From assembly GCF_020622265.1 (NCBI RefSeq), contig NZ_JACNMQ010000008.1:1-64000 (forward strand): 64,000 bases of DNA, read 5' to 3'. Numbering within the stretch: the first letter of the stretch is position 1; the number at the start of each line of letters is the position of its first letter. The translations under genes were made by a program, and so were the position numbers. Below are positions 9,414 to 43,935 of this stretch, piece by piece. The notes under the pieces are model-generated. The model did not search any database and was not told where the DNA came from. It was given only the letters and a program-made list of their open reading frames with translations. Source of the stretch: Halomonas sp. M20. GTDB taxonomy: Bacteria; Pseudomonadota; Gammaproteobacteria; Pseudomonadales; Halomonadaceae.

Positions 9414-10658
9414 ATGGCGGAATTAGTCTTTGTTATTGGCTCGGGACGCTCAGGCACGTCGCTAGCTTCACAAATACTGGGTAAACTCGGTGGACGAATT
9501 TCTAATGAATTGGTGCCCGTGGGTGAACAGAACCCAGATGGGGCATATGAAGACAAATTTGTTTTCGATACTATCACCCAGCTAATGCGTGAACTTGGGG
9601 CGACCCATAATTTGCCGATGCCAGAGGGATGGTTGGAAGCTTCTGCAACGCGAGCTTGCATTAATGCGTTGGTTGATAAAGTGAATGCTGAAGCTAAACT
9701 TGAGGGGGGGCCTTGGATATTGAAGGAACCAAGGTCTGCAATACTATTGCCCATGTGGCGAAAAGTGTTCAACCGTACCAAGGTGGCACCGAAATACGTA
9801 TTGACCCTGCGTGACCCGAAGAACGTCTGTGTTTCGTCCTTCAAACAGTATGGGGAACCAGTCGAAGTTACAGAGTTGATGTGGCTGAATAAGTATGTAT
9901 CCGCTTTAGGCGAGTTGAGTGTTAGCAGTTACTTACTGCATTATGAATCCTGGTTTACCAATCCTGTCGAGACGTCACGCGATTTGGCCGAATATGTCGG
10001 CTTGTCAGTGGATGAGGTCACCTTGAAGTCTATTGTAAGTGAAACGGTCAAGCCTCGTCTTAACCGTTCGGATTTTCTTGGCATTGAGTTAAAAAACCCT
10101 TGCGTAACGAACCTGTACCATGTCCTGCAGGCATGCAATGGCCTAGATTATAGGCGCGATCAGTTGAAGGGTGCGCTACAACAGGCAATAGCATCGATGG
10201 ATGCGTTTTCCGGCTGGGTGCAGCTTTATTACGCCAAGAAAACTTCAGCCCAGCCCGCCGATAAAGAAAAAAAGGATCTAAAAAAGCTGACTAGAGAGTT
10301 TGAAAAAGCAAAGTATGATTTGGCAGACGCTCTTCAGCGAGAGTCCCAACTGCTGGCGAAACTCGAAAGCGAACAGGCAAATCAACAAAATATCAATCTG
10401 ATGGCTACAAAGCTCGTCGAGGCAACTCAATCTATGCAGAAGACTGAGAAGGCTCTGAGAGAGAAAACGGAGGAGATAAAAGCCTTACGCGTGAAACTAA
10501 ATAAAGTTATGAAACGCTATGACATCATTGTTTCCTCAACAAGCTATCAGTTAAGTCAGGTTTTTGCGAATATGGTGCGATCCCCATTGAGAGGGTTTTT
10601 CCTATTGCCGGTTAATTTGTTTTCGGTTCTGAAGAAATGGCGTTCACGTGGTAATTAA
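9414..10658 (+). CDS. Sulfotransferase with C-terminal coiled coil
   Basis: Protein of 414 residues. Residues 1 to about 265 are a PAPS-dependent sulfotransferase fold: the 5'-phosphosulfate-binding loop FVIGSGRSGTS at residues 5-15 and the 3'-phosphate-binding segment LRDPKNVCVSSFKQY near residue 132. Residues about 280-365 are strongly charged, heptad-rich and likely form a coiled coil (KKDLKKLTREFEKAKYDL and onward). A short amphipathic tail rich in Phe/Leu follows and may touch the membrane or other assembly proteins. The gene starts 12 bp after the two-domain GT and ends 11 bp inside the next gene, so it belongs to the same operon. It would sulfate a sugar on the growing polymer with PAPS from CysNC; the acceptor is not known. 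Confidence 0.82.
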   Translation: MAELVFVIGSGRSGTSLASQILGKLGGRISNELVPVGEQNPDGAYEDKFVFDTITQLMRELGATHNLPMPEGWLEASATRACINALVDKVNAEAKLEGGPWILKEPRSAILLPMWRKVFNRTKVAPKYVLTLRDPKNVCVSSFKQYGEPVEVTELMWLNKYVSALGELSVSSYLLHYESWFTNPVETSRDLAEYVGLSVDEVTLKSIVSETVKPRLNRSDFLGIELKNPCVTNLYHVLQACNGLDYRRDQLKGALQQAIASMDAFSGWVQLYYAKKTSAQPADKEKKDLKKLTREFEKAKYDLADALQRESQLLAKLESEQANQQNINLMATKLVEATQSMQKTEKALREKTEEIKALRVKLNKVMKRYDIIVSSTSYQLSQVFANMVRSPLRGFFLLPVNLFSVLKKWRSRGN

Positions 10659-12975
10659 TATCAAAGTTTCTGTTATTGTACCGCTATACAATACGACGGA
10701 ATATATTACCGAGTGTCTCGAATCAGTGTTAGTTCAGACATTGAAGGAAGTCGAAATTATCGTCGTTGACGATGGCTCTACTGATGGAGGGGACAAGCTA
10801 GCAGAGCGATATTGCGCTAGGTATCCGCAGGTCAAGTTGCTGCGTCAGAAGCGTAAGCGACAAGGTGCTGCGAGAAACTTAGCGCTTTCTAATGCCAACG
10901 GTGAATATGTTTCTTTTTTGGACTCTGATGATACATTGCCTGCCGATGCACTTCAGAATATGGTCGACGCGGCAGAGCGATACGACAGCGACATGGTCTG
11001 CGGCATTCAGCAGTCCTTCAGCCAATGGCGTAGCTGGGTCGGTGTACCTGTACATCAGCGAGAGTTCAATCGACTGATTGAGCGCACCACCATTGAAGAG
11101 ATGCCAACCCTGATACAGGATATCAGCGCCTGTAATCGTTTGATCCGTCGTAAAAGTATTGAAAAACATAAAATTCGCTTTCCGGAAGGTACAGCGGGTG
11201 AAGATCTGGATTTCATGGCCCGGATGTACCTTAACTGCGATGTCATCACTATATTACCAGAGGTCGTCTACAACTACCGCGGGCGTGTTGATTCGCGTAC
11301 CAGTCGAATATCAGCGCAGTTTTTTGAGGATCGAGTAGCGGTCACCGAGAGCCTTAAACAGTCTTTTGCCGAAAAAGGCGCGCTGGATATATACCAGCGC
11401 CTATTGCGCTCCGAGGTGAGAAAACTCGTAGGCAATCGCTTCCTGAAGGTGATCAAAAGTTCACCTTATGATGAGCAACTGCAGATTTTCGAGATTATCG
11501 GCCGCTTAGTGAAGCAGTTGTCTCCAGCGGATATGCGTTCTGCTGAGGATTATTCGCTGCTTCAACAAGTGCGCATCATCATGCTCTGCGGCCAAGAGTA
11601 TGATGCTCTTGTAGCTTATGAAAACGCTCCGCGCTCACCACGCTACCTAGCCCTGCTCAAGTCTGATGTCATCAAGGCACAACTCTTCGAACCCATGATG
11701 CGTATGCAGTTCCAAGGCGTGGCGAGCTTCGAGCGGGTGCAGCAAGCGCAAAACTCGCGAGTATTTTCTATCGCTTCGCGTATCGCTCTCAAAGCGGCAA
11801 AAGTTCTGAGGTTGGCATCGAAAGTCAAAATTCTGCCTATGCTTAAGTACTTTGCGATGGCACCGGTAGCTAAGCTGATTGCCAAGTTGAATTCAGATAA
11901 AACCATTTGGCTGATGGACGAGAGGGTTGCCAGCAGTGCTGAGGATAACGGTTACTTTTTCTTCAAGCACCTGCGTGAAACCTATCCGCAATTGCCAGTC
12001 TTCTTCGTGCTTAACCGCCACTCGCCGCATTGGGATATCGTGGCACCGCTTGGCAATGTAGTGACGCAGTACTCCTTGAAGCATGCTTATTTGCTGTGGC
12101 GTGCCCGGGTGATGTTGTCCACCGACAGCTTCCGTGGCCTAGATTACCCGAGCGAAGCTTTACCTCGCCTACGGCGCAAAACATTGAACGTATTTCTGCA
12201 GCATGGCGTGGCTGGCAACAAGACCATGACTTACACACGGGAAAATTATCCTTATTTCTCGCAGGTGATCGTTTCGAACGGCATTGAACAGGCGTTTTTC
12301 AGCGACCACTATGGATTTTCGCCCGATCAGGTGAAACTGACCGGCATCGCCCGACTGGATGCGCTGCCGACCCAGCGCGCCAAGGAGCGCTCACGTAAAA
12401 TCCTGGTGGCTCCTACCTGGCGGCGCTGGCTCAGGGGTCGGGACGAAATTCAGGCCAGCCGGTATTACCATGCCTGGAACCGTTTTATCACCAGCCCGCG
12501 GCTAGCAGAGTTGCTGGATCAGCACCAGATGGAACTGTATTTCCGTCCCCATTTCAATATGATGCATTTCATTGGCGAGTTCGAAAAAAGCTCGTCACGG
12601 GTTCATGTGATCCGTGATCTCGATGAGCCGCTTCATCATCTGATTCGTGAGGCGGATTTACTGATCACCGACTATTCGAGCGTGATGTATGACTTCTTCT
12701 ATCAGGAGAAGCCTGTCCTGGGTTACATGTTCGACCGCCTTGAGTGGGAGATGCAGCCGCCGGGGCCACCACATTTGGACTATGAGCGTGATCTGGCGCT
12801 TGAGTTGGTTACAACTGAGGAAGCTTTGCTGGAGCAGTTACGACAATGCCTTGAAGATGGCTGCGAAATGCCAAAAGATAAGCGTGAGCGACTAACCAAG
12901 CTGTTCACCTACCGCGATGGCAGAAACTGTGAGCGAATCTATCAGGCGGTAAAAGAGGACTTGACCCGGGTATGA
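10648..12975 (+). CDS. Fusion of GT2 glycosyltransferase and CDP-glycerol glycerophosphotransferase (TagB/TagF-like)
   Basis: A 775-residue bifunctional protein. Residues 5-230 are a GT2 domain: VSVIVPLYNTTEYITECLES, VDDGSTDGG, FLDSDDTLP. From about residue 420 to the end it has the Glyphos_transf features of teichoic-acid enzymes: VFLQHGVAGNKTM near 515, LTGIARLDALP, LVAPTWRRW, ITDYSSVMYDFFY near 672 and KPVLGYMFD. It may add a sugar and glycerol phosphate (or ribitol phosphate) to a lipid-linked glycan on the inner membrane face. Start: GTG at 10648, overlapping the sulfotransferase by 11 bp, which implies coupling. A gene for glycerol-phosphate cytidylyltransferase (TagD) is not in the window, so the donor must come from elsewhere or differ. 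Confidence 0.85.
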   Translation: MVINIKVSVIVPLYNTTEYITECLESVLVQTLKEVEIIVVDDGSTDGGDKLAERYCARYPQVKLLRQKRKRQGAARNLALSNANGEYVSFLDSDDTLPADALQNMVDAAERYDSDMVCGIQQSFSQWRSWVGVPVHQREFNRLIERTTIEEMPTLIQDISACNRLIRRKSIEKHKIRFPEGTAGEDLDFMARMYLNCDVITILPEVVYNYRGRVDSRTSRISAQFFEDRVAVTESLKQSFAEKGALDIYQRLLRSEVRKLVGNRFLKVIKSSPYDEQLQIFEIIGRLVKQLSPADMRSAEDYSLLQQVRIIMLCGQEYDALVAYENAPRSPRYLALLKSDVIKAQLFEPMMRMQFQGVASFERVQQAQNSRVFSIASRIALKAAKVLRLASKVKILPMLKYFAMAPVAKLIAKLNSDKTIWLMDERVASSAEDNGYFFFKHLRETYPQLPVFFVLNRHSPHWDIVAPLGNVVTQYSLKHAYLLWRARVMLSTDSFRGLDYPSEALPRLRRKTLNVFLQHGVAGNKTMTYTRENYPYFSQVIVSNGIEQAFFSDHYGFSPDQVKLTGIARLDALPTQRAKERSRKILVAPTWRRWLRGRDEIQASRYYHAWNRFITSPRLAELLDQHQMELYFRPHFNMMHFIGEFEKSSSRVHVIRDLDEPLHHLIREADLLITDYSSVMYDFFYQEKPVLGYMFDRLEWEMQPPGPPHLDYERDLALELVTTEEALLEQLRQCLEDGCEMPKDKRERLTKLFTYRDGRNCERIYQAVKEDLTRV

Positions 12976-33924: not shown

Positions 33925-36900
33925 TCAAGGCCAGATTACTCCGGCAGTAGAGCGTCGCTCGAAGCCGTTCATTACCGTTAGGCTGATCTGATTGGCGGCA
34001 TCCGCCACGCCGCTGGCCACGGAGCTCACGTGGCTGACGATAGCCGGGGTCGGACTGCCGGTACTGTTGTAGCTGTCTTCAATCTGTTCGGCGATCTGCT
34101 CGGCGGCGTATTCACCGAAAGGCTTGCCCGGAATATATGCATAGGCACTGGCTTCACCGCCCGGCATGGCCGACATGGCTGCCGCTGCCGCCTGGTTGAT
34201 CATCGAGTTCTGCATGAAGGCAGTTGGGTCGCTGCCGTGATGCTGAGACTGCCAGGCATGGGCCAACTCGTGGATCAGGGTGTCCGAGCGGGGTCGGGTC
34301 GCAAAACTGGCGATCGAGCCCTGGTTCATGGCGATCCACCAGTCGCCACTCACCGGGAAGGCCACGGTGAACGGCCGACCACCGCAGCCGAGGCCGTCGG
34401 TGATGAGGATATGACTGAAGTCAAGGCTCGCCCCATAGACGGTGCGCGCTTCCGCCTGCTCGGCGGGATCCAGAAAACGCAGCCGACTCGGCGCCTTGAT
34501 ACCCGGGCAGACGATATTTTCGATGGCATCCGGTATCCATTCCTTCAGACTCTCAAGGGCGTCTTGTATCCGTTGCAGCAGCTCCCGGACGTTGTCTGGC
34601 ACGGGCGGCGATGTCGGTGGCCTCAATGGTGGCGGCGTAATTATGGGCGCTGGACGCAGTCGCTCAAGCTCGGCCCAGGTCAAGGGCCCGATCTTGCCGT
34701 CCCACTCCTCGCGCTGGCCGGGAAAGACGCAGCGTTGGAAGATCCGCGTGGCCGTATCCGTTTGCGGGCCAAAACGGCAGTCGACCCGTAGCAGCGCCGG
34801 GGATAGAGTGGCCCGCATCCGCCCGATGGCAGCGAGGTCGGCTCCGGTGCGGCAGTGGTAGCCGCCACTATCGAGCGCGGATAGGAATTTATTGAGCAGC
34901 CACTGGGCATCGCCGACGGTGGGGTTGCGCGAGCGGCGGCGGTCGCTGCCACGATAGACCAGCGGATGCAGACCGCGGCCCTCCGGGTCAGGCAATGCTG
35001 CCGGTGGCCCCTCTCCCGGGCGGCAGTGGTGAAGCACGGATTCCGTTTCCAAGATGTCCGCGATGCCATCGCCATCGAGGCCATTCCACGGGCGAAGCAG
35101 CATGGCATTGCCGGGTAGACGCGGCCGCGCCGAACTCCCGCGCAACCGCCAGGCGCACCGCCTTGAATTATCGATGCGCCTTATTCGAATCATACCGCCT
35201 GTATCCTGGGCCTCCACTACGCTCAGACGGGCCAGGCCTCCTTCGTCCAGCGCCCGTTCGATAAGCAGATCGCCGCGTTCGGGCTGAGCGGATAACGTTT
35301 CGCCTGGCCCACCCAGTATCTCGAAATCGTTCTCCCAAAGCGTGCGGTTTGCCGCTCCATACAATCCTAGCGCCGCATCCATGAAGCGTGCGGCGGCTTC
35401 GCCCGTCTCCATCACGCCATCCGCACGATCGACCAAGGGCAAGTTCGCTGCAATCTCATGCAACTGCGCACTCGGGGCCGATGCCGAGGCTGTAGGCAAA
35501 AAGGCGCTATCAACTTCCAGCGCCGGTACTGGCATCATTTCTTGCCAGAGTGGCTGCGATGAAGCGGGAATTTCCTTATCCGGCCAGAGCGCCGAGTCGA
35601 GAAAGCCATCATCCTGCTCCTCGCTGGGAGCCGACTGTGAGCTGCCTCCGGCGGCGAACCACTTGCGCTTCGTGCCGGATTTCAGAGTCGGTTCGCCGTC
35701 GGTGGCATGGATACCATCGAAGAGGATGACGCCCTTGAATCCTTCGGTTTCCACCGCAAAGGTCTTAGCCCACACCTTGGCGAAGTTATCGCTATTGCAT
35801 CCCAGGAAGCGGTGGCGTCGAGCGGACGACCCCGCACGAAAGCTCTTCTTGAGCTTGGAAGTGGCGTTATCCTTGATGTCATCCACCGCGATGATCTCGT
35901 GGGAATCCGGAGCTACCGGGGTGGCGCTGCTGCTATGAGCGAGGGTCAGCCAGAGCCCGTCCCGGGCGTGCCCCCAGTACCAGAGCCTGGAGATCGGATC
36001 GCTGAACGTCTTGAGCTTGCTCCACAGCTCGTCGGCTTTCTCGAGCCAGCGTAGGTTCCAGCCCCTGGACTTGGCCCGCCCCTCGAGCAGATCGACATAG
36101 GAGGAAAAGCCCTTGTCTCGAACTTCCTTGACCGATTTGCGGCGATGCTTGACGTCGTCCTCCCATCGGCGCACGTAGGCGGGCTTGTAGATGAACCACC
36201 AAACCTCCTCGTCGCTTGCGCCGAGGCTGCGATTCGGCCCCGAGCCGTCGCTCAGCAGCAACGGCGGCGTCACATAGTTCGCCCAGGATTTGTCGTGTTC
36301 GTCATCGCGGTCGTCGAACAGGCCGGGGCCGCCGGAGACGAGGATGAAATTGCGGTTGGTCGCCTCGCTCAATGTGTTTTCGGAATGCGCCTGTATATCG
36401 TCGAGCGGGGGCGTCTCCGGAAAGAGTGAATCATCCGGTTCGTTGTCGAAGTGTGCCATGTCGTCACCTGCTGGTAGATGCCCGAGGGCTGTGGCGCGCT
36501 CTACACTGTGCGCTATATTGAGGCGCCCGCCACCGAGCCGTCTTCTGTCCTGGTCGCCGGCTTCCACTGGCTCGAGTTCTCCCAGCAGGGCGCGACGGGT
36601 CTCGGCGATTGGCAGCAAGCGTCCGGCGGCCTCGAACATCAGCAGTAGCGTGCCCGCCACGTGAGGGGCGGCCATGCTGGTGCCGGTCTTGCGGGTCAGC
36701 AAGGGGGCGTCGTCTACTGTTCGGGGATGGGAGCGGGCCGCCAGGATGGCACCACCCGGGGCGATCAGGTCGGGTTTCGTGCGTCCGTCCCGGGTAGGAC
36801 CGGCACTGCTCGCCGATACCAACGGCAAGCCCTCGCGGTGGGCGTCGTAGGCCCCCACGGCCAGGGTCTGGAAACCGTTGCAGATGGTGCCGGTGGTAGT

Positions 36901-38211
36901 GGTCGGCTCCGCATCTTCCTCCACGAAGCGGGTCTGGCAGCTACGACAGCCCGAGTCTCGCTCGATCCAGGCATGGAAGCGTCCATCCACTACCTCGTCT
37001 GCGCTCAAGCGCAGCCGCCAGGCGCCAGCGGGGGCATCGGGGCTCAGGAACAAGTCGACGTGGTGATCGCCGGACCCTGGGTCCGAGGCACGGTGATAGA
37101 GCCGCCCGACTCCCTCGCCATCGATTATCAAGGGCACCGTCTCGCCCTGGCGGGCGCGGAAGGGGGCTTGGGAATTCGGGGCAAACACCTCGACAAGTAA
37201 GCGGTCGCGGCCTTCGTACCAGACTTCGAACTCATTCGGCGTGCGGTCCGCCGCGTCGGTGATCCAGGTCAAGGTGCGCTCTTGCCCCGGGCCGATACGC
37301 CCACTGGCGTGGGTGGCGGCACGGTAATAGTTGCCGCAGCTCTGGGTGATGGCACGTCCGGGGTGGTCGAGCAGCAGGGCATCCATACCTTGTTCGAGCA
37401 GCGATTCGCCCTTGTGACTGCCAGAATGACTGCCGAGGCTGGTATTGATCACGCAGGGCCGCTTGCCAGCGGTGCGGTGAATGAAGTCCAGAGCTTCCAG
37501 GATGCGTACCGAGTCGCCGAGATCGCTCAGACCGAACACTCGCGAATTGGCAAGATGCACGAAGATCAGCTCCGCGCCAGGTGCCACTCCCAGGGGGCTG
37601 CCCCCAAGACGTCCGTTGCCGGCAGCGATGTCCAGTACGTGGGTGCCGTGAGCACCAGCGCCGGGTGGGGCGTCCACGTCGGCAGAGTCATAATCCAGAG
37701 CGGTGTAGGGATCATCCTGTTCCAGTGCCACGTCGATGGCGGCGCGTGTCAACAAGCGGCCATAGCCGTAGGGAGCCGGTGAGGCGGGGTTGGCCTGCCC
37801 GCGTTGGTCCCACAGGGCGAGCAGCCGTGTACGTCCATACTCGTCGCGCAGATTGGGATGGGCAAAGTCGCAACCGAAATCGACAACGCCAAACACACAT
37901 CCGGCACCGGTTGCCTGGAGATTGTCCGGACGGCGCAGGTCGGTAGCTCGCAGCTCGGTATCGTTGGCCTCACCAAGGCCCAGTGGCTCCTGATGTAGAG
38001 CATCGAGCAGACGTGGCGCCTTGAGGCTCACGACGCGAGGGTCCGACCACACCTGCTGGATATCGCCCCGCCGTAACCGGCAGGTCGCCACCGAGCCGAA
38101 ACGCGACACTAGGGTCACCGCTGGGGGGGTCTGGCCTCCCCGCAGCTTGATCAGAGCCTCGAGCTCGGTATCGGCGGGGCCTTGCATCAGCTCGGCGAGT
38201 ATCGGGTCCAT
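33925..38211 (-). CDS. Giant multidomain protease: subtilisin, caspase-like region, PG-binding-like region, HExxH domain
   Basis: Protein of 1428 residues, no signal peptide or membrane helix seen. Residues 100-575 are an S8 subtilisin domain with an intact triad: Asp111 (VVDFGCD), His188 (GAHGTHV), Ser512 (TGTSMAAPHVAG) and oxyanion Asn294. Residues 620-850 form a conserved-looking region with WYWGHA (His747) and RFLGCNSDNFA (Cys805), a spacing and context reminiscent of caspase/CHAT dyads; this is my inference. Residues 1097-1185 resemble a peptidoglycan-binding repeat (FGPQTDTATRIFQR, GKIGPLTWAEL). A Pro-rich linker (1187-1205) leads to a C-terminal domain with HELAH (1314-1318) and a Glu-rich helix (E1367/E1371) fitting a gluzincin-type zinc site. 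Last gene of the minus-strand cluster, 24 bp after the coiled-coil protein. No inhibitor-like I9 prodomain was recognised. Substrate unknown. Confidence 0.85.
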   Translation of the reverse strand: MDPILAELMQGPADTELEALIKLRGGQTPPAVTLVSRFGSVATCRLRRGDIQQVWSDPRVVSLKAPRLLDALHQEPLGLGEANDTELRATDLRRPDNLQATGAGCVFGVVDFGCDFAHPNLRDEYGRTRLLALWDQRGQANPASPAPYGYGRLLTRAAIDVALEQDDPYTALDYDSADVDAPPGAGAHGTHVLDIAAGNGRLGGSPLGVAPGAELIFVHLANSRVFGLSDLGDSVRILEALDFIHRTAGKRPCVINTSLGSHSGSHKGESLLEQGMDALLLDHPGRAITQSCGNYYRAATHASGRIGPGQERTLTWITDAADRTPNEFEVWYEGRDRLLVEVFAPNSQAPFRARQGETVPLIIDGEGVGRLYHRASDPGSGDHHVDLFLSPDAPAGAWRLRLSADEVVDGRFHAWIERDSGCRSCQTRFVEEDAEPTTTTGTICNGFQTLAVGAYDAHREGLPLVSASSAGPTRDGRTKPDLIAPGGAILAARSHPRTVDDAPLLTRKTGTSMAAPHVAGTLLLMFEAAGRLLPIAETRRALLGELEPVEAGDQDRRRLGGGRLNIAHSVERATALGHLPAGDDMAHFDNEPDDSLFPETPPLDDIQAHSENTLSEATNRNFILVSGGPGLFDDRDDEHDKSWANYVTPPLLLSDGSGPNRSLGASDEEVWWFIYKPAYVRRWEDDVKHRRKSVKEVRDKGFSSYVDLLEGRAKSRGWNLRWLEKADELWSKLKTFSDPISRLWYWGHARDGLWLTLAHSSSATPVAPDSHEIIAVDDIKDNATSKLKKSFRAGSSARRHRFLGCNSDNFAKVWAKTFAVETEGFKGVILFDGIHATDGEPTLKSGTKRKWFAAGGSSQSAPSEEQDDGFLDSALWPDKEIPASSQPLWQEMMPVPALEVDSAFLPTASASAPSAQLHEIAANLPLVDRADGVMETGEAAARFMDAALGLYGAANRTLWENDFEILGGPGETLSAQPERGDLLIERALDEGGLARLSVVEAQDTGGMIRIRRIDNSRRCAWRLRGSSARPRLPGNAMLLRPWNGLDGDGIADILETESVLHHCRPGEGPPAALPDPEGRGLHPLVYRGSDRRRSRNPTVGDAQWLLNKFLSALDSGGYHCRTGADLAAIGRMRATLSPALLRVDCRFGPQTDTATRIFQRCVFPGQREEWDGKIGPLTWAELERLRPAPIITPPPLRPPTSPPVPDNVRELLQRIQDALESLKEWIPDAIENIVCPGIKAPSRLRFLDPAEQAEARTVYGASLDFSHILITDGLGCGGRPFTVAFPVSGDWWIAMNQGSIASFATRPRSDTLIHELAHAWQSQHHGSDPTAFMQNSMINQAAAAAMSAMPGGEASAYAYIPGKPFGEYAAEQIAEQIEDSYNSTGSPTPAIVSHVSSVASGVADAANQISLTVMNGFERRSTAGVIWP

Positions 38212-38235: not shown

Positions 38236-38718
38236 TCAGCGCGACCTGCCCCGGCGACGCTGCTTCGTTCCCCGGACGCCGTCACTTCCCACGAGTTGCA
38301 GGATGCCGTCACCGAGCTGCTTGACCGCTTCCTCGACGCTTGCCTTGTTGGCATTAGCTACATTGTCCGGCACCTTGAAGGCGTCCATTAGCTGCTTCAC
38401 GCCACTAAGCACTTCCTCGCGAAAGGCTTCGAGGTTCGCATCATCGTCGTCGGAGGGCTCTGAAGGCTCCAGCTCGTCCAGTCGCTTCTTCAACTCGAGG
38501 TTCTCGGCGGTCAGTCTGATGACCTCCGCGCTGCTGACGTTCAGTCGCGTTTCGAGCTCCTGCTTCTGATCGACCTGGCGTTTCACCAGCACCATACCGA
38601 TGGGGCTGTTGGCAGGCATCTGACCAAGCTGCAGGCCGGCGTTCAACGCTTCGTCTCGCGGGCGATCCTTCGCTAGCAGGAAGCCGAAGAGGAAGTTGTT
38701 GTTGAATATCTCATTCAT
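38236..38718 (-). CDS. Coiled-coil protein of the protease cluster, unknown
   Basis: Protein of 160 residues. The first 40 residues are mixed polar/hydrophobic (NEIFNNNFLFGFLLAKD). Residues about 48-85 form a Leu/Glu/Lys heptad region likely to be a coiled coil (QELETRLNVSSAEVIRLTAE and onward), then an acidic hinge (SEPSDDDDAN) and a helical part. The C terminus is very basic (GTKQRRRGRSR), a feature shared with two neighbours. Lies 22 bp downstream of the acidic/Arg-rich gene and 24 bp upstream of the protease gene, on the same strand. I do not recognise the family. Confidence 0.65.
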   Translation of the reverse strand: MNEIFNNNFLFGFLLAKDRPRDEALNAGLQLGQMPANSPIGMVLVKRQVDQKQELETRLNVSSAEVIRLTAENLELKKRLDELEPSEPSDDDDANLEAFREEVLSGVKQLMDAFKVPDNVANANKASVEEAVKQLGDGILQLVGSDGVRGTKQRRRGRSR

Positions 38719-38740
38719 GATATCTCTCCTCGGGGCCGCG

Positions 38741-39502
38741 TTATTTGAAAGCGCCGGATAGCAGCAGGGCCATCATCATCGACGAGTTGGAATCGCTACC
38801 ACCGCCGAAACCACCGGACATCATCAGGATCAGCGGCAGCGCCGAGTCGTCCTTGGCGAAGGCGTCACCGACCACCTGGAAGGTTGTGGGCGCCTGGCCA
38901 GATTCTTGCAGAGTGACGGCATTGTTCTTGAACTTGGGCGTGGAGCTCAGCAGCAGCGGTAGTATGCCGGCTTGCTGGACCTGGGCCTTGACCTTCTTGA
39001 GCGATTTTCCGGTGTCCGAGCGCAGAGCGTTGATCTTCTTGTCGACCATGGCAGTATTCTTGTCGAGGGTCTTGTCCACCTTGCTGAGAGAACGAGCCAG
39101 CTTGGTCAACTCGCCCTTGACCTGCCTGAAGCGCGCATCCACCGATGAGGCCTTGGCCAGCGAGGTGGGAAAGCGTAGCCGGGCATTGCCCGCCGGGGTG
39201 CGGATAGTGGCGGAGCGGGTGCGCGACACCCGGTGCAGTGCCATGGGACGGCTCACCCGGCTACGGCCGCGCCGCCGACGCCGATAGCGTGGAAAGCGCC
39301 GGCGACGACGCTCAGCAATCGACTCGCCTTCGTCGTCCCACCCCTCCCAGTCATCGTCACTTTCGTCGTAATCGTCTTCCGCGAACAGTGCCTCGCCGTC
39401 GAAATCATTCTCGTCTTCGCTATCGAAATCGTCGTCGTCTTCCGGCAGCGCGTCGAGCAGATCCTCATCGTCGAGCAGGTCCACCGTGTCTTCGAGTTGC
39501 AT
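38741..39502 (-). CDS. Acidic-then-Arg-rich protein of the protease cluster, unknown
   Basis: Protein of 253 residues with a striking charge split. Residues 1-60 are almost all Asp/Glu (DLLDDEDLLDALPEDDDDFD and onward); residues 64-85 are Arg-rich (ERRRRRFPRYRRRRRGRS). Residues about 110-165 are Lys/Leu/Asp heptads (KLARSLSKVDKTLDKNTAMVD), a likely coiled coil. The C-terminal third is hydrophobic with a Gly/Ser/Met-rich end (LPLILMMSGGFGGGSDSNSS). Oppositely charged ends could drive assembly or DNA/polymer binding. Function unknown; the coding frame is supported by GC-rich codon use and operon position. Confidence 0.65.
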   Translation of the reverse strand: MQLEDTVDLLDDEDLLDALPEDDDDFDSEDENDFDGEALFAEDDYDESDDDWEGWDDEGESIAERRRRRFPRYRRRRRGRSRVSRPMALHRVSRTRSATIRTPAGNARLRFPTSLAKASSVDARFRQVKGELTKLARSLSKVDKTLDKNTAMVDKKINALRSDTGKSLKKVKAQVQQAGILPLLLSSTPKFKNNAVTLQESGQAPTTFQVVGDAFAKDDSALPLILMMSGGFGGGSDSNSSMMMALLLSGAFK

Positions 39503-39544
39503 GGCGTCTTCTCCTTGCCCGCGTATCCCATGTTAGGGGGCGGG

Positions 39545-40006
39545 TCAGTCAGCTTGGTCGGAAGCCGTCGTTTCCTCGGATGTGGCGGCCTTCCGGGCGG
39601 CTCGAGCATTGCGCAAATCGCGCAGGGCCTCGAGCACCGGGATCACAAAGTTTCGAAAGTTGCGCCGACCGGGAATGAAGCTGCCGGGCCCGCCATCTCC
39701 TTGGCAGTCGGGACACTGGGGGTCGGTGCCGAAACAGTGGCAGGCGCCCAAGGCGTCGGCGAGAGTATCTGCCTGATAGACGAGCAGCTGATTTTCCCGG
39801 CGTAGCCGTTTCACCTCGGCCCGTAGTGCTGCAGTGGTGTCGCTGGCGCTACGCTCGACTTCGGTCTCCTCCACACTCGGCTCGTTGCTGGCGGCACGTA
39901 TCTGTTCCATCAGTTGCGCCGCGGCAGTGAGCTTCGCATCGTCAATGCCCAGCCGTTGAAGTAGGGCGGGGTCCATGGTGGCCAAGGGATCGTTGACTGA
40001 GTTCAT
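39545..40006 (-). CDS. Zinc-ribbon-like small protein of the protease cluster, unknown
   Basis: Protein of 153 residues. A helical N terminus is followed by a coiled-coil stretch (ALRAEVKRLRRENQLLVYQA) and a Cys cluster HCFGTDPQCPDCQGDGGPG preceded by another Cys (C-x-C...C-x-x-C), resembling DnaJ-like zinc modules; then a basic region (RRNFRNFVIPVLEALRDLRN). It probably binds one zinc ion. Position is second in the cluster, 15 bp after the glycine-zipper gene. Function unknown. Confidence 0.6.
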   Translation of the reverse strand: MNSVNDPLATMDPALLQRLGIDDAKLTAAAQLMEQIRAASNEPSVEETEVERSASDTTAALRAEVKRLRRENQLLVYQADTLADALGACHCFGTDPQCPDCQGDGGPGSFIPGRRNFRNFVIPVLEALRDLRNARAARKAATSEETTASDQAD

Positions 40007-40021
40007 CGTCTGGCTCCTTGC

Positions 40022-40891
40022 CTATACGGCACGCCCGAGCCAGGCGACGATCGACTCGGCTTGTGAGAAGGATGGGTCGGCCTGCGCTTCGGGGTCGGAA
40101 GCCCAGCGTTCTTCCGCCAGCAGGGCAAGCAGATGCTCCGCCCGAGCCTGATCGTCGCCAACGTCGACCACCGCCTCACCCGTCTCGTCCAGCAGGTATT
40201 CCGGAATGCCAGTACCACCGCTGTGCGCCTCCGTGGCGGCCTCGGTGGCTAACATTTCCAAAGCGTTCATGAATGCACCAAACGGCGCGGCCACCGCCGC
40301 TTCTCCTACGTGAACGGTACTTGCCTGGCTGTCACCCAGCAGACGTGCGGTCAGACTCCGCAGGAAGGATGGATTCTGTATCAGCGAGAGCAACTGGGCG
40401 GCGGCGTTGTCGCTCGCGGAGCGTCGCCTCGGTCGGCGTCCCGGGCCGCGGCGCCTGATGCGGCGAGAAACACGGGCCGTTCTTGCTGGCGTACTGGTGC
40501 GGCGGCGGGGGCGTCGTCGGCTTCCTCCTTGGGTGGCGCGACCGACCAATCCTCCGGCGATACCGCCCAGTTGACTGCCAACGGCAGTGCCCATCGGACC
40601 ACCGACCACTGTGCCTACGGCCCCACCCACCACGGGGAGTATCTTCGGGGCAGCGCGTACCAGGGTGCGCCCCAGTCCCTTGGCGACTCTACCCAGCGAG
40701 CTGAAGAAGCCCTCGATCTCCTCCGGCGTCATCTCGTCGAGGGCCTCGCTCAGAGCCTCGTCGACCTGATCGTCTTCCATGCCCCGGTAGACGGGGGATA
40801 TCTCACGCAGCAGCTCGGCATAGGTGATGCCCGGGTACTCTGATGTACTCTCCGCCGTTTCTGGTACCCAGTGTTCGAATGTGTCGGCCAT
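40022..40891 (-). CDS. Glycine-zipper and Arg-rich protein, first gene of the protease cluster
   Basis: Protein of 289 residues. The ATG at 40889-40891 with GGAGG nine bases upstream is preferred to the longer frame starting at 40942. Residues about 20-70 are acidic (DDQVDEALSEALDEMTPEEIE). Residues about 85-125 are a glycine zipper, VVGGAVGTVVGGPMGTAVGS and onward, of the kind that forms membrane-embedded or oligomeric helices. Residues 125-165 are Arg-rich (RRRPRRRTSTPARTARVSRR). The C-terminal half is Ala-rich and helical. Could be a membrane-active or particle-forming protein; not identified. It is the first gene downstream of the candidate SARP-type promoter. Confidence 0.65.
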   Translation of the reverse strand: MADTFEHWVPETAESTSEYPGITYAELLREISPVYRGMEDDQVDEALSEALDEMTPEEIEGFFSSLGRVAKGLGRTLVRAAPKILPVVGGAVGTVVGGPMGTAVGSQLGGIAGGLVGRATQGGSRRRPRRRTSTPARTARVSRRIRRRGPGRRPRRRSASDNAAAQLLSLIQNPSFLRSLTARLLGDSQASTVHVGEAAVAAPFGAFMNALEMLATEAATEAHSGGTGIPEYLLDETGEAVVDVGDDQARAEHLLALLAEERWASDPEAQADPSFSQAESIVAWLGRAV

Positions 40892-41073: not shown

Positions 41074-41979
41074 TTACTCTTCAGAGTTCTTCAGCGCCTC
41101 TATCAGCAGGTTTTCGGCGATGATCAAGTGATGCATGGCACTTTGGAGAAGCTGCCCGGGTGGCTGGTCTTCCAAAGCGTAGGAAGAACGTGGCAGAGGT
41201 GCGCGAGATTCCTGCGAGGTGGATTCTATCGGCGGGGTAGTGTGCAGTGCGCGAACAAGACATAGCGTCTCTTGGGTTGGCACGCCGTGCAAGTCACTTT
41301 GCAGACGATTGGCGAGAATACGGAACTGGCGCATGGCCGCAGCGCGATTACCCAAGGCAATATGGGCACGCATCATCGCCCGATGGATACGCTCCTGAAG
41401 GGGATCATAGGCCAGCAGGCGATGCCCATAGTCGAGTACGTCATGCCAGGCTCGGCGTTCTTCGGCTAGGTGCAGTAGAGTCGCTAGTAGATCGAGGAAC
41501 TTGGCGCGAAATCGTTCCCGCTCCAGCCAGCACCAATCTTCGTTCATGCCCTCGGCAAAGTCGCTGTAGCGAAGCTCGTCAAGCCCTGCTTCCAGTAGTG
41601 CACCGTAGTCCAGTTTCTCCGATTGGCTATGAGGAAGGCTGCGATGAAGGCGCTCCAATTCCCCTACATCGCTCCAGAATTGGCAATCGATACACAAACC
41701 GATGCCGCTGTCCTGAGTGCGAATCAGTTGATCGACAGGCATACCCTGCTGGCGCAGTGCGCTTTTCAAACGCCAGAGCTCCGTACTGAGACAGTTGCTT
41801 GTCCTGATGTCGTCCCGCTTGGGCCATAGGAGATCGACGATCTGTGATCGACTGAGCCATTTGCCGGCATGTAGTGCCAAGAGACAGAACAGCGCCCTCG
41901 ATCGACGTGAAGTGAACTGACTGGCCCGGTTGTGCTCCATTTCAAGCCGGGGTCGACCCAACAGATAGATGTTGATCAT
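41074..41979 (-). CDS. BTAD-domain transcriptional regulator (SARP/AfsR-like)
   Basis: Protein of 301 residues. The N-terminal about 95 residues form an OmpR-type winged helix (IYLLGRPRLEM, SRRSRALFCLLALHAGKWLS, LLWPKRDDIRTSNCLSTELWRLKSAL), followed by a bacterial transcriptional activation domain made of TPR-like helices (LATLLHLAEERRAWHDVLDYG, AMMRAHIALGNRAAAMRQF). No ATPase domain is attached. The ATG at 41977-41979 gives the usual MINIYLLG start; a GTG at 42003 is less likely. Such regulators usually activate neighbouring gene clusters; here the minus-strand protease cluster begins 182 bp downstream, and the motA-motB pair is divergent. BTAD regulators are less common in gammaproteobacteria than in actinobacteria. 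Confidence 0.85.
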   Translation of the reverse strand: MINIYLLGRPRLEMEHNRASQFTSRRSRALFCLLALHAGKWLSRSQIVDLLWPKRDDIRTSNCLSTELWRLKSALRQQGMPVDQLIRTQDSGIGLCIDCQFWSDVGELERLHRSLPHSQSEKLDYGALLEAGLDELRYSDFAEGMNEDWCWLERERFRAKFLDLLATLLHLAEERRAWHDVLDYGHRLLAYDPLQERIHRAMMRAHIALGNRAAAMRQFRILANRLQSDLHGVPTQETLCLVRALHTTPPIESTSQESRAPLPRSSYALEDQPPGQLLQSAMHHLIIAENLLIEALKNSEE

Positions 41980-42194
41980 AGTGGTCCCCCCCGATAGAAC
42001 CACGAATATTTACTGTTTTTGCACACCGTTGGTCCGGCAAGAGTTATCCGGTATGTGACAAACGGCAAATTTATGTGAGTGTGTTATGAAGAATAGGTGA
42101 GTTGAGGCGTCTTTTCACTGCTTTGCCTCCTGGCTACATCGTTATGATGATCGTATTCCTCAAGCGATCGCCCATCGAAGGGCCCAGGCTCCGC
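41980..42194. promoter_or_regulatory. Divergent intergenic region between regulator and motA
   Basis: About 215 bp holding the promoters of the regulator (left) and motA (right). On the plus strand TATGTGA occurs at 42052-42058 and again at 42072-42078, 20 bp apart, sharing the TGTGA core with the direct repeat at 41026-41053, but spacing differs and no good -10 follows. I cannot assign a promoter with confidence. Confidence 0.3.
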
Positions 42195-43010
42195 ATGAAT
42201 GCTTCCACGCTGATCGGTATCGTTGCCAGTCTTTTGTTGCTGGCCTGTGTTCTCTTGCTTAGCGCCGATACGGCCATGAGCTTCATCAACCTGCCGGGCT
42301 TGATGATCGTTATTGCTGGTACTCTGGCCGCCACATTCATCAGCTACCCTTTGCGTGAAGTGATCCGCGTGGTGCGGATAATCAGGGTGGTTTTTCATCG
42401 CGAGAATAGCTACGTCGAGGAAGACGTGCGCGAATTGGTGGTCATGGCCCGACTGTGGTTCCAGGGCGATATCCGCGCGGTAGAAAGAGCCCTCGAGCAG
42501 ACGCGCAATCCGTTCCTGCGTACCGGTGTGCAACTTGTGATCGACAATACCAAGGAAGCGGAGATCATGGATCTTTTGCGCTGGCGTATTGCTCGCTTGA
42601 AGGCTCGGGAACTTGCCGAGGCGCAGATCTTTCGTACCATGGCCGCTTATGCCCCGGCCTTTGGCATGATCGGCACCCTCGTGGGGCTGGTCAACATGCT
42701 GCAAACCATGGATGCCGGCGATCTGGCCGTAATCGGCCCCGGCATGGCCGTGGCACTGCTTTCCACCTTCTACGGCATTTTGATCTCGAACCTGATCTGC
42801 AAGCCGATTGCCGTCAAGCTCGAACGCCGCACCGAACAGCGCTTGATTGCCATGAATATGGTGCTGGAAGGGGTCTCGCTTATCGCCAAGCGTCGCTTGC
42901 CATCTTTTGTCGAGGAGACGCTGAACTCGTTCATCGCCAACTACCAGGATGAAATCCGTGACCCTCTGGAACCTTCCATGGGAAACGAGGGTGTGACGGT
43001 CCATGCTTGA
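42195..43010 (+). CDS. MotA/PomA-family stator protein
   Basis: Inner-membrane ion-channel subunit of 271 residues. I start it at the ATG at 42195 (AGG nine bases before), giving MNASTLIGIVASLLLLACVLL as the first helix; the open frame extends to a TTG at 42102. Seen: four membrane segments, the cytoplasmic loop with charged RWRIARLKARELAEA, and the conserved third and fourth helices APAFGMIGTLVGLVNML and GPGMAVALLSTFYGIL with the key Pro. It forms a proton or sodium channel with the MotB-like protein whose gene overlaps by eight bases. No other flagellar genes are in the window, so the motor it drives is uncertain. Confidence 0.88.
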   Translation: MNASTLIGIVASLLLLACVLLLSADTAMSFINLPGLMIVIAGTLAATFISYPLREVIRVVRIIRVVFHRENSYVEEDVRELVVMARLWFQGDIRAVERALEQTRNPFLRTGVQLVIDNTKEAEIMDLLRWRIARLKARELAEAQIFRTMAAYAPAFGMIGTLVGLVNMLQTMDAGDLAVIGPGMAVALLSTFYGILISNLICKPIAVKLERRTEQRLIAMNMVLEGVSLIAKRRLPSFVEETLNSFIANYQDEIRDPLEPSMGNEGVTVHA

Positions 43011-43935
43011 AATACACCGTGAGCACACGAGCCATGACCGGCTGTTGACCCTGAATGCCGAAGATCGCGGGGGCGACAGCTGGATGATCAGCTACATGGA
43101 CATCATGACCCTGTTGGTTGCGCTGTTCGTGTTGGTCTTGAGCCTGAATGGTACGGCGGGAATTACCGCCGATGCCGCGCCCACCTCAGTTGTGTCCAAT
43201 GTGTCGCCTGAGGCCATAACGGCGGCGCGGCGCATCAATCATTCGCCGGGTCTGCTACCCAGAGCGCTACAGGCGGCCATTCAGGTTGCCTCTACCCCCA
43301 TCATCAGTGCCAACGCCATTGCCTTGGCACGCCAAGTGGCCAGATCGCAATTGATAACGGATCAAGCCATTGCTGCGGCTCGCTCGATTGCACGCTCACG
43401 ACTCATTCAAACCCAGACGATCGCGGCCTCGCTGAAGGTGGCGCGTACCCTGAAGGTGAGTGCGGAAGCTCAGGCGGCGGCGATACAGATTGCGGGGCAG
43501 TGGCAAGTACGACAATCCGAACAGGCGCTCCCGGTGATCGATGGCGTAGAAGTGTCTCGCGTCAAGGGTGGGATCAATCTACGCATCCAGGATCACCTGT
43601 TGTTCGACTCCGGGGATGCGGCGCTGACTGGCTCCGGCGAGGCGGTGACCCAGGAGCTGGTGGCAACGCTCAATCGCTATAAAGGCACCATTTCCGTGGA
43701 AGGGCACACTGATAGCGTACCCATCAAGACCGAGCGCTTTCCCTCAAACTGGGAGCTTTCCAGCGGACGCGCGACGGCCATCCTGCGCTATCTCAACCGG
43801 GCGGGTATCGAGTCCTCGCGGCTACGTGCGGTGGGCTATGCCGATACGCAACCCTTGAAGGACAACGATACGGAAAAGGGCCGCGCCGCCAACCGGCGGG
43901 TGGAGGTGATCATCCACGAGCCCGAGGTTGGTTGA
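43003..43935 (+). CDS. MotB-family protein with repeat-containing linker and OmpA-like domain
   Basis: Protein of 310 residues. A single membrane helix near residues 29-49 carries the ion-binding Asp33 (SYMDIMTLLVALF). Residues 70-172 are six consecutive 17-residue repeats with the pattern A-I-A-x-A-R-x-[VI]-A-R-S-x-L-I-x-x-x (clearest at 105-121 and 122-138), which is not usual for MotB. The C-terminal OmpA domain (VEGHTDSVPIKTERFPSNWELSSGRA near 235, GRAANRRVEVII near 295) binds peptidoglycan. It pairs with the MotA-like protein (8-bp overlap). Faces the rbsR gene convergently with 20 bp between. Confidence 0.88.
   Translation: MLEIHREHTSHDRLLTLNAEDRGGDSWMISYMDIMTLLVALFVLVLSLNGTAGITADAAPTSVVSNVSPEAITAARRINHSPGLLPRALQAAIQVASTPIISANAIALARQVARSQLITDQAIAAARSIARSRLIQTQTIAASLKVARTLKVSAEAQAAAIQIAGQWQVRQSEQALPVIDGVEVSRVKGGINLRIQDHLLFDSGDAALTGSGEAVTQELVATLNRYKGTISVEGHTDSVPIKTERFPSNWELSSGRATAILRYLNRAGIESSRLRAVGYADTQPLKDNDTEKGRAANRRVEVIIHEPEVG

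Follow-up and report, generated by a model that had tools for sequence, protein, structure and literature searches.

A conserved set of small genes ahead of a Csp-like subtilase with variable tails: a candidate for a bacterial weapon or lysis system not described before

A gene cassette in Halomonas sp. M20

The window analysed here, that is, the first 64,000 nucleotides of contig NZ_JACNMQ010000008.1 of Halomonas sp. M20, contains four adjacent minus-strand genes for small proteins, designated A to D, followed by the gene of a giant protease that joins a subtilase head related to the Csp germination proteases to a variable tail, and preceded by a gene for a SARP-like regulator with a BTAD domain (Table 1). 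The intergenic gaps measure 15 nt (A-B), 42 nt (B-C), 22 nt (C-D), 24 nt (D-subtilase) and 182 nt (BTAD-A), a Shine-Dalgarno-like stretch precedes the ATG of each of A, B, C and D, and the gene next downstream of the protease lies on the opposite strand. A sequence-only reading of the window had singled out four open reading frames with a glycine zipper and Arg tract (A), a Cys motif (B), an acidic, then Arg-rich chain with a coiled coil (C) and a coiled coil with a basic tail (D), and all of these are present. None of the four proteins matches a Pfam or NCBIfam family over the curated cut-off, and PHROGs and PADLOC yielded nothing convincing. A literature search, for which preprints and most subscription papers were out of reach, so that a description may exist elsewhere, found no publication on the cassette, in line with the earlier view that no described system has this set.

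Conservation and spread of the cassette

A tblastn search of plasmids with the protease matched 29 records, and the same small genes lie ahead of the protease in three of the eight examined, from Cupriavidus, Streptomyces and Gemmatirosa. A scan of a species-genome collection (84,980 species by its own description) that used four such proteases in alignment as query led to 41 loci. Iterated profiles of A to D, run against the six frames of 50 sources (the window, the eight plasmid loci and the 41 loci), recovered A in 32, B in 31 and C in 29 sources, one of the C matches being marginal (E 9e-4); D was recovered in 16. In all 33 sources with two or more of A, B and C, the main matches lie on one strand in the order A-B-C-(D)-subtilase. 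Thus A, B, C and often D form one conserved unit with the Csp-like subtilase, and the linkage to the giant protease that had been proposed from the window alone extends over six phyla: Pseudomonadota, Bacteroidota, Cyanobacteriota, Actinomycetota, Chloroflexota and Gemmatimonadota. The number of independent loci is slightly lower, because L038 repeats the sequence of L037, as judged by eye, and L014 is closely related to L016. The sequence covered begins inside B or A in L022, L026 and L041, the Streptomyces record has an unannotated B at the expected place, and five loci without a well-recognised C (L025, L029, L030, L032 and L039) have, as read from their sequences, an Ig-like-tailed protein in the C position.

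The ratio of nonsynonymous to synonymous change (pN/pS) was 0.07-0.49 in 16 gene pairs from four locus pairs, with synonymous change near saturation in several of them. The gene pairs compared are therefore under purifying selection, and these ratios, combined with the same-order relatives in six phyla, establish A to D as real genes.

None of A to D was detected in 17 of the 50 sources, although for L012 and L036, with less than 0.9 kb upstream, the absence says little. A maximum-likelihood tree was calculated from 47 protease heads, leaving out L038 (by eye the same as L037) and the fragments L041 and L050. A single branch (100/99) separates the 31 cassette rows together with L012, L034 and L036 from all 13 cassette-free heads. 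Phyla are intermixed within the cassette side, which suggests horizontal transfer.

The distribution of the cassette is sporadic. In samples with a limited number of candidates scored per genome, profile B matched the window's own genome and three marginal candidates among 398 genomes of its phylum, the own genome alone among 97 relatives, and three genomes, all known cassette carriers, among 292 from the phylum of the Calothrix locus. Two of the marginal candidates (L100 and L101) are unrelated proteins; the third is G403. Profile A, applied to 345 genomes from the phylum that includes the Hymenobacter montanus locus, found the cassette already known there, members of a diverged sister family in three genomes (L097-L099) and two weak matches that look unrelated (L102 and L103). 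The sister genes have neither B, C and D nor a cassette-type subtilase nearby; the one in L098 lies near an eCIS_core protein that also has a phospholipase C match below the cut-off, and the one in L097 is near a sub-cut-off deaminase-like match. We count this location near toxin-like genes in favour of an effector function. Singly scattered homologues, set beforehand as the refuting result, were not seen apart from this family.

Proteins A to D

Protein A consists of an acidic helical N-terminus, a Gly-zipper-like helix in which G89, G93, G105 and G109 are nearly invariant, an Arg tract and a C-terminal helical domain; its predicted structure is weak (pLDDT, the predicted local distance difference test score, 66.7). 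In B, a coiled-coil-like part is followed by a zinc-type motif, CxC/CxxC in the window and CxxC/CxxC in most relatives. Protein C runs from an acidic through an Arg-rich segment to a coiled-coil-like part and a Gly/Asn/Ser-rich tail with short hydrophobic stretches. Conservation across relatives holds for the Cys motif in B and for the change from acidic to Arg-rich in C. Protein D is poorly conserved overall: about 60 N-terminal residues can be aligned, in an alignment for which several rows were picked by gene position rather than profile match, and the C-terminus is variable, being coiled-coil-like with a basic tail in the window. D of the cyanobacterial locus L020 has three PASTA repeats. 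As read from the sequences, the Arg tract of A is present in some relatives (L031 and L033) and missing in many others, as is the basic tail of D (present in L018, L027 and L028). Because two of the three Arg tracts are thus inconsistently conserved, the earlier suggestion that the protease cleaves these tracts is not supported.

Kyte-Doolittle maxima of at least 1.6 over 19 residues occur in 5 of the 24 A and 8 of the 20 D proteins, and in none of the 28 B or 23 C proteins; none of the 95 aligned rows reaches 1.6 within its N-terminal 35 residues. Judged by hydropathy, strong membrane-spanning segments are the exception, so that A to D are unlikely to be simple membrane proteins. It appears plausible that they are parts of one putative physical assembly.

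Protease heads and tails

The window protease matches Pfam Peptidase_S8 (E 1.8e-24, 87 bits against a cut-off of 21.8) and has the Asp, His and Ser triad motifs. The best curated profiles of its head are the NCBIfam models CspBA (122.3 bits against 1250) and CspC (89.5 against 675), and its closest solved relatives, over residues 56-527, are Csp germination proteases; by these scores, the head is related to that group but not a member of it.

Past about residue 600 the cassette proteases diverge; both Flavobacterium loci have a short subtilase of 557-560 residues counted from the match start. Many tails contain a module of the type GDLLVRRALGEG, the core pattern of which matches past residue 520 in 16 of the 43 proteases listed, and degenerate forms are seen by eye in others. 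The window protease combines a degenerate copy of this module with a peptidoglycan-binding-like segment and a C-terminal HExxHxxQ domain. Its last 228 residues share 75% identity with the C-terminal ends of two cassette proteases from Pseudomonas, whose heads are only 51% identical to its own, and the preceding segment matches a cyanobacterial tail, which makes the window protease a mosaic. Despite the HExxHxxQ motif, eCIS_core, the metallopeptidase of the Photorhabdus virulence cassette (PVC) type, was not among its Pfam matches at E <=1, nor did Pfam return a PAAR, WXG or TPS match; no signal-peptide predictor was run.

Of 29 listed tails, 24 were scanned against Pfam at E <=0.01, leaving out L014 (a near copy of L016), L015, L034, L036 and L037; proteases without a tail of the required length (L022, L024, L033, L041, L043, L046 and others) were outside the list, and the window protease was scanned whole. 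A match was obtained for 14 tails, 12 of them over the curated cut-off, with PG_binding_1, M23, Phage_lysozyme2, M15_3, VanY, Amidase_2, PLDc_2, OmpA and DUF4056 as the families; CHAP (L040), PG_binding_1 in L019 and Lactamase_B_2 (L008) remained below it. Wall-related matches (PG_binding_1, M23, Phage_lysozyme2, M15/VanY, Amidase_2, CHAP or OmpA) were present in 13 of the 14. The recognised tails are thus mostly predicted peptidoglycan-binding or peptidoglycan- or phospholipid-cutting domains. This combination of a conserved head with a variable, often wall-related tail is the main feature of the giant protease and was missed in the sequence-only reading, which had recognised its linkage correctly.

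In several loci the protease is followed by a second effector-like gene, with matches to VanY (L013), Muramidase and VanY (L015 and L023), phospholipase D (PLD) and PG_binding (L019) or OmpA (L033); the second gene of L043 had no match. Second effector-type genes with a similar N-terminus lie at 14783-16207 in L013, 12571-15276 in L015, 15222-16640 in L021 and 13968-16694 in L023, and the Pfam scan of these covered L013, L015 and L023, not L021.

Regulators and contractile injection systems

The BTAD domain of the window regulator scores 52.4 bits against a cut-off of 22.1, and its Trans_reg_C match lies just below the cut-off (25.7 against 26.2). Upstream of A, the window and 26 other loci offer 1.5 kb or more of sequence; in these 27, a BTAD protein was found upstream in seven (the window, L004, L024, L025, L033, L035 and L039), a LuxR-type regulator in two (L008 and L029, with more distant matches in L013, L021 and L046 left out of the count) and a sigma-54 activator in two (L014 and L016); no regulator was recognised upstream in the rest. 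Co-occurrence with the BTAD gene, an earlier expectation, therefore holds for some loci only, and the five genes with BTAD represent a local version of the cassette.

Matches to the contractile sheath (PF04984) occur in 15 of 25 cassette genomes, 11 of them over the cut-off; the sheath is on the cassette contig in one of the 15, about 35 kb away, a comparison weakened by the fragmentation of many genomes. Pvc16_N, a gene of extracellular contractile injection systems (eCIS), is present in 14 of 25 cassette genomes (14 of 28 with the three sister-family genomes, all negative), compared to 75 of 291 genomes from a single bacteroidote order (among them two cassette genomes, both with the gene) and 0 of 14 controls. 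At the bacteroidote-order rate, the probability of at least 14 in 25 is about 0.001; the lineages differ, however, and the enrichment is confounded by lineage. Pvc16_N is absent from 11 of the 25, including all four named Pseudomonadota and the window's genome (100% complete), which has one sheath match, on another contig. An ecological or functional link between the cassette and eCIS is possible, as opposed to dependence.

Interpretation

The cassette has the appearance of a so far undescribed weapon or lysis system of bacteria. Our best reading is that of a widespread, horizontally spread family of effector type, given that the heads stay together in the tree and the tails differ, that is, a constant N-terminal part is joined to variable C-terminal domains, as in polymorphic toxin and effector systems. 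In its full form, the proposal is an effector system of polymorphic type, directed mainly at the cell wall by lytic tails, in which the Csp-like head would be latent and would do the processing, and A to D would serve as a packaging or delivery module; we give this about an even chance of being correct. The subtilase would be kept latent with its prodomain, by analogy with CspB, within a complex that A to D would build and that would not depend on a Sec signal. Once the complex is deployed against another cell, the subtilase would process the protein and free or activate the tail, which would then attack the envelope of the target cell. In the window version, this tail would comprise the peptidoglycan-binding-like segment and the metallopeptidase-like HExxHxxQ domain.

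The available part of the csp account (PMC3567191) reports that CspB, which also has a jellyroll domain, cleaves off its own prodomain and remains bound to it, and that disrupting the csp locus prevents the cortex hydrolase SleC from being cleaved; the pairing of a latent subtilase with a wall hydrolase is therefore known. CspB or CspBA with SleC thus shares with the cassette the coupling of a subtilase to peptidoglycan hydrolysis, whereas the cassette usually fuses hydrolase and protease in one protein, none of its loci is clostridial, and A to D do not appear in that part of the account. The PVC/eCIS metallopeptidase effectors, as far as described in the accessible text of PMC3482391, likewise combine a constant peptidase head with a highly variable tail, show a wide phyletic spread and in a notable share of cases have no adjacent immunity genes. 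In contrast, the cassette has a Csp-like subtilase in place of the PVC metallopeptidase, its dedicated small genes A to D come first, and the window genome has no Pvc16_N match. Among the conflict systems of Kaur et al., one joins an S8 domain to a NucA nuclease and another, separate system has a partner helix with a Gly-rich patch; nothing like A to D or wall-lytic tails is mentioned in the accessible part of that paper (PMC7159879).

Several observations weigh against the effector proposal. The delivery route can only be inferred, and fold searches with A gave nothing significant. Tape measure proteins of phages give weak matches with the Gly-rich part of A (E 0.003 in PHROGs, E 0.001 in PDB), a likeness that probably reflects shared composition. 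Ten of the 24 tails have no Pfam family at E <=0.01, the window tail has no match over the cut-off, and some tails are not wall enzymes (PLD and the sub-cut-off beta-lactamase-fold match). The locus L034 is on the cassette side of the tree and has 2.2 kb upstream, yet lacks A to D. Finally, inspection by eye of the window and of 24 downstream regions revealed no recognisable immunity gene, although immunity families of unknown type could escape notice there.

Of the other explanations, unrelated neighbours or chance reading frames, for which the lack of a family over the cut-off for A to D might speak, can practically be dismissed, being refuted by a gene order kept across six phyla and by purifying selection. 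A more specific proposal, which we regard as doubtful, although worth entertaining, is that A to D form a non-contractile, signal-peptide-free delivery particle or pore, a new export system across phyla, with the subtilase head of the wall-lytic effectors as docking part and trigger. The main rival is programmed self-lysis, in which the Gly-rich hydrophobic parts of A, C and D would act like holins in the producer's own membrane and the subtilase would activate the fused lysin, so that the cell lyses to release something. The lytic tails without an evident signal peptide, the lack of a recognised immunity gene, the Gly-rich hydrophobic stretches and the regulators upstream in some loci all fit this scheme, and phage holin-endolysin cassettes similarly pair small proteins with hydrophobic stretches with a wall hydrolase. 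However, hydropathy maxima are high in few of the A and D proteins and in none of the C proteins, and the cassette differs from those of phages by its subtilase head, coiled-coil-like parts and Cys motif. Neither PASTA repeats, seen in D of L020, nor a subtilase head is known from holin-endolysin systems. Accordingly, we consider self-lysis unlikely.

It is rather improbable, in our estimate, that the subtilase fusions are cargo loaded into contractile particles encoded elsewhere, with A to D as chaperones or adaptors. The frequency of Pvc16_N among the cassette genomes and the sister A-like gene near an eCIS_core protein speak for this possibility, as does the naming of subtilisin among the processing proteases of the PVC pathway by Zhang et al., in the accessible text of PMC3482391. 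Nevertheless, the window genome and the other Pvc16_N-negative carriers, the lineage confounding and the single contig shared with a sheath argue against it. Still less probable, though far from dismissed, is a structural or surface assembly, such as a coat, a filament or a cell-wall remodelling complex, with a maturation protease and no role as a weapon. Coiled-coil-like parts, the short hydrophobic stretches in C, and PASTA and PG_binding domains are compatible with such an assembly, and Csp proteases act on a spore enzyme, according to the available part of PMC3567191; by contrast, a conflict system would account better than a housekeeping assembly for the sporadic distribution and the mosaic tails.

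Four protein families that lack a curated model make up a fixed set, tied in at least six phyla to a protease whose tails are swappable and often wall-related. Export or deployment of the tails by this set, if it occurs, would open a new route for antibacterial enzymes; lysis of the producer would instead make the set a chromosomal lysis switch of new design. In either case, the cassette yields profiles for four families, a group of proteases that can serve as a marker, and a gene set that is unambiguous.

Coordinates and neighbouring genes

Table 1. Positions of the genes and segments discussed, in the window unless a locus is named
Feature	Position	Strand	Details
BTAD (SARP-like) regulator gene	41074..42003	-	upstream of A, same strand
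Protein A gene	40022..40891	-	289 aa
Protein B gene	39545..40006	-	153 aa
Cys motif of B	39704..39742	-	C89, C91, C98, C101; columns invariant in 28 aligned rows
Protein C gene	38741..39502	-	253 aa
Protein D gene	38236..38718	-	160 aa
Giant protease gene	33925..38211	-	1428 aa; Csp-like subtilase head and variable tail
Subtilase head	36502..38211	-	Asp VVDFG from residue 109, His HGTH from 188, Ser GTSMAAPH from 510
Tail module (GDLLIERA...)	35050..35325	-	degenerate copy; CHAP/NlpC-like in low-confidence model
Peptidoglycan-binding-like segment	34660..34917	-	aligns with PG_binding_1 region of L020 protease; no own Pfam match
C-terminal HExxHxxQ domain	33928..34539	-	HELAHAWQ from residue 1314
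Sister A-like genes	L097 9140-9853; L098 9186-9989; L099 9134-10147		a further one in L099 by eye, 10186-11031

In the window, plus-strand MotA/TolQ-like and OmpA/MotB-like genes, as judged by reading of the sequence, lie directly beside the BTAD gene at 42102-43935. Sugar-nucleotide, glycosyltransferase and polysaccharide-type genes, identified in the same way, form a long run over 4000-32000, mostly on the plus strand, which has a guanine-cytosine content of 0.42-0.57 and stops shortly ahead of the cassette.

Outside the window, the second A match in L003 is part of a decayed second cassette. In the Cupriavidus oxalaticus plasmid NZ_CP038636.1 such a decayed cassette (L104, 9348-13441), with a partial A beside a protease tail (PG_binding) and a regulator-like open reading frame upstream, lies near the intact one. 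Cassette-free plasmid subtilases are followed by a small gene in L005 (9479-9736), L006 (9841-10119) and L009 (9668-9925), and in L005 and L009 a phospholipase D-like gene comes after it.

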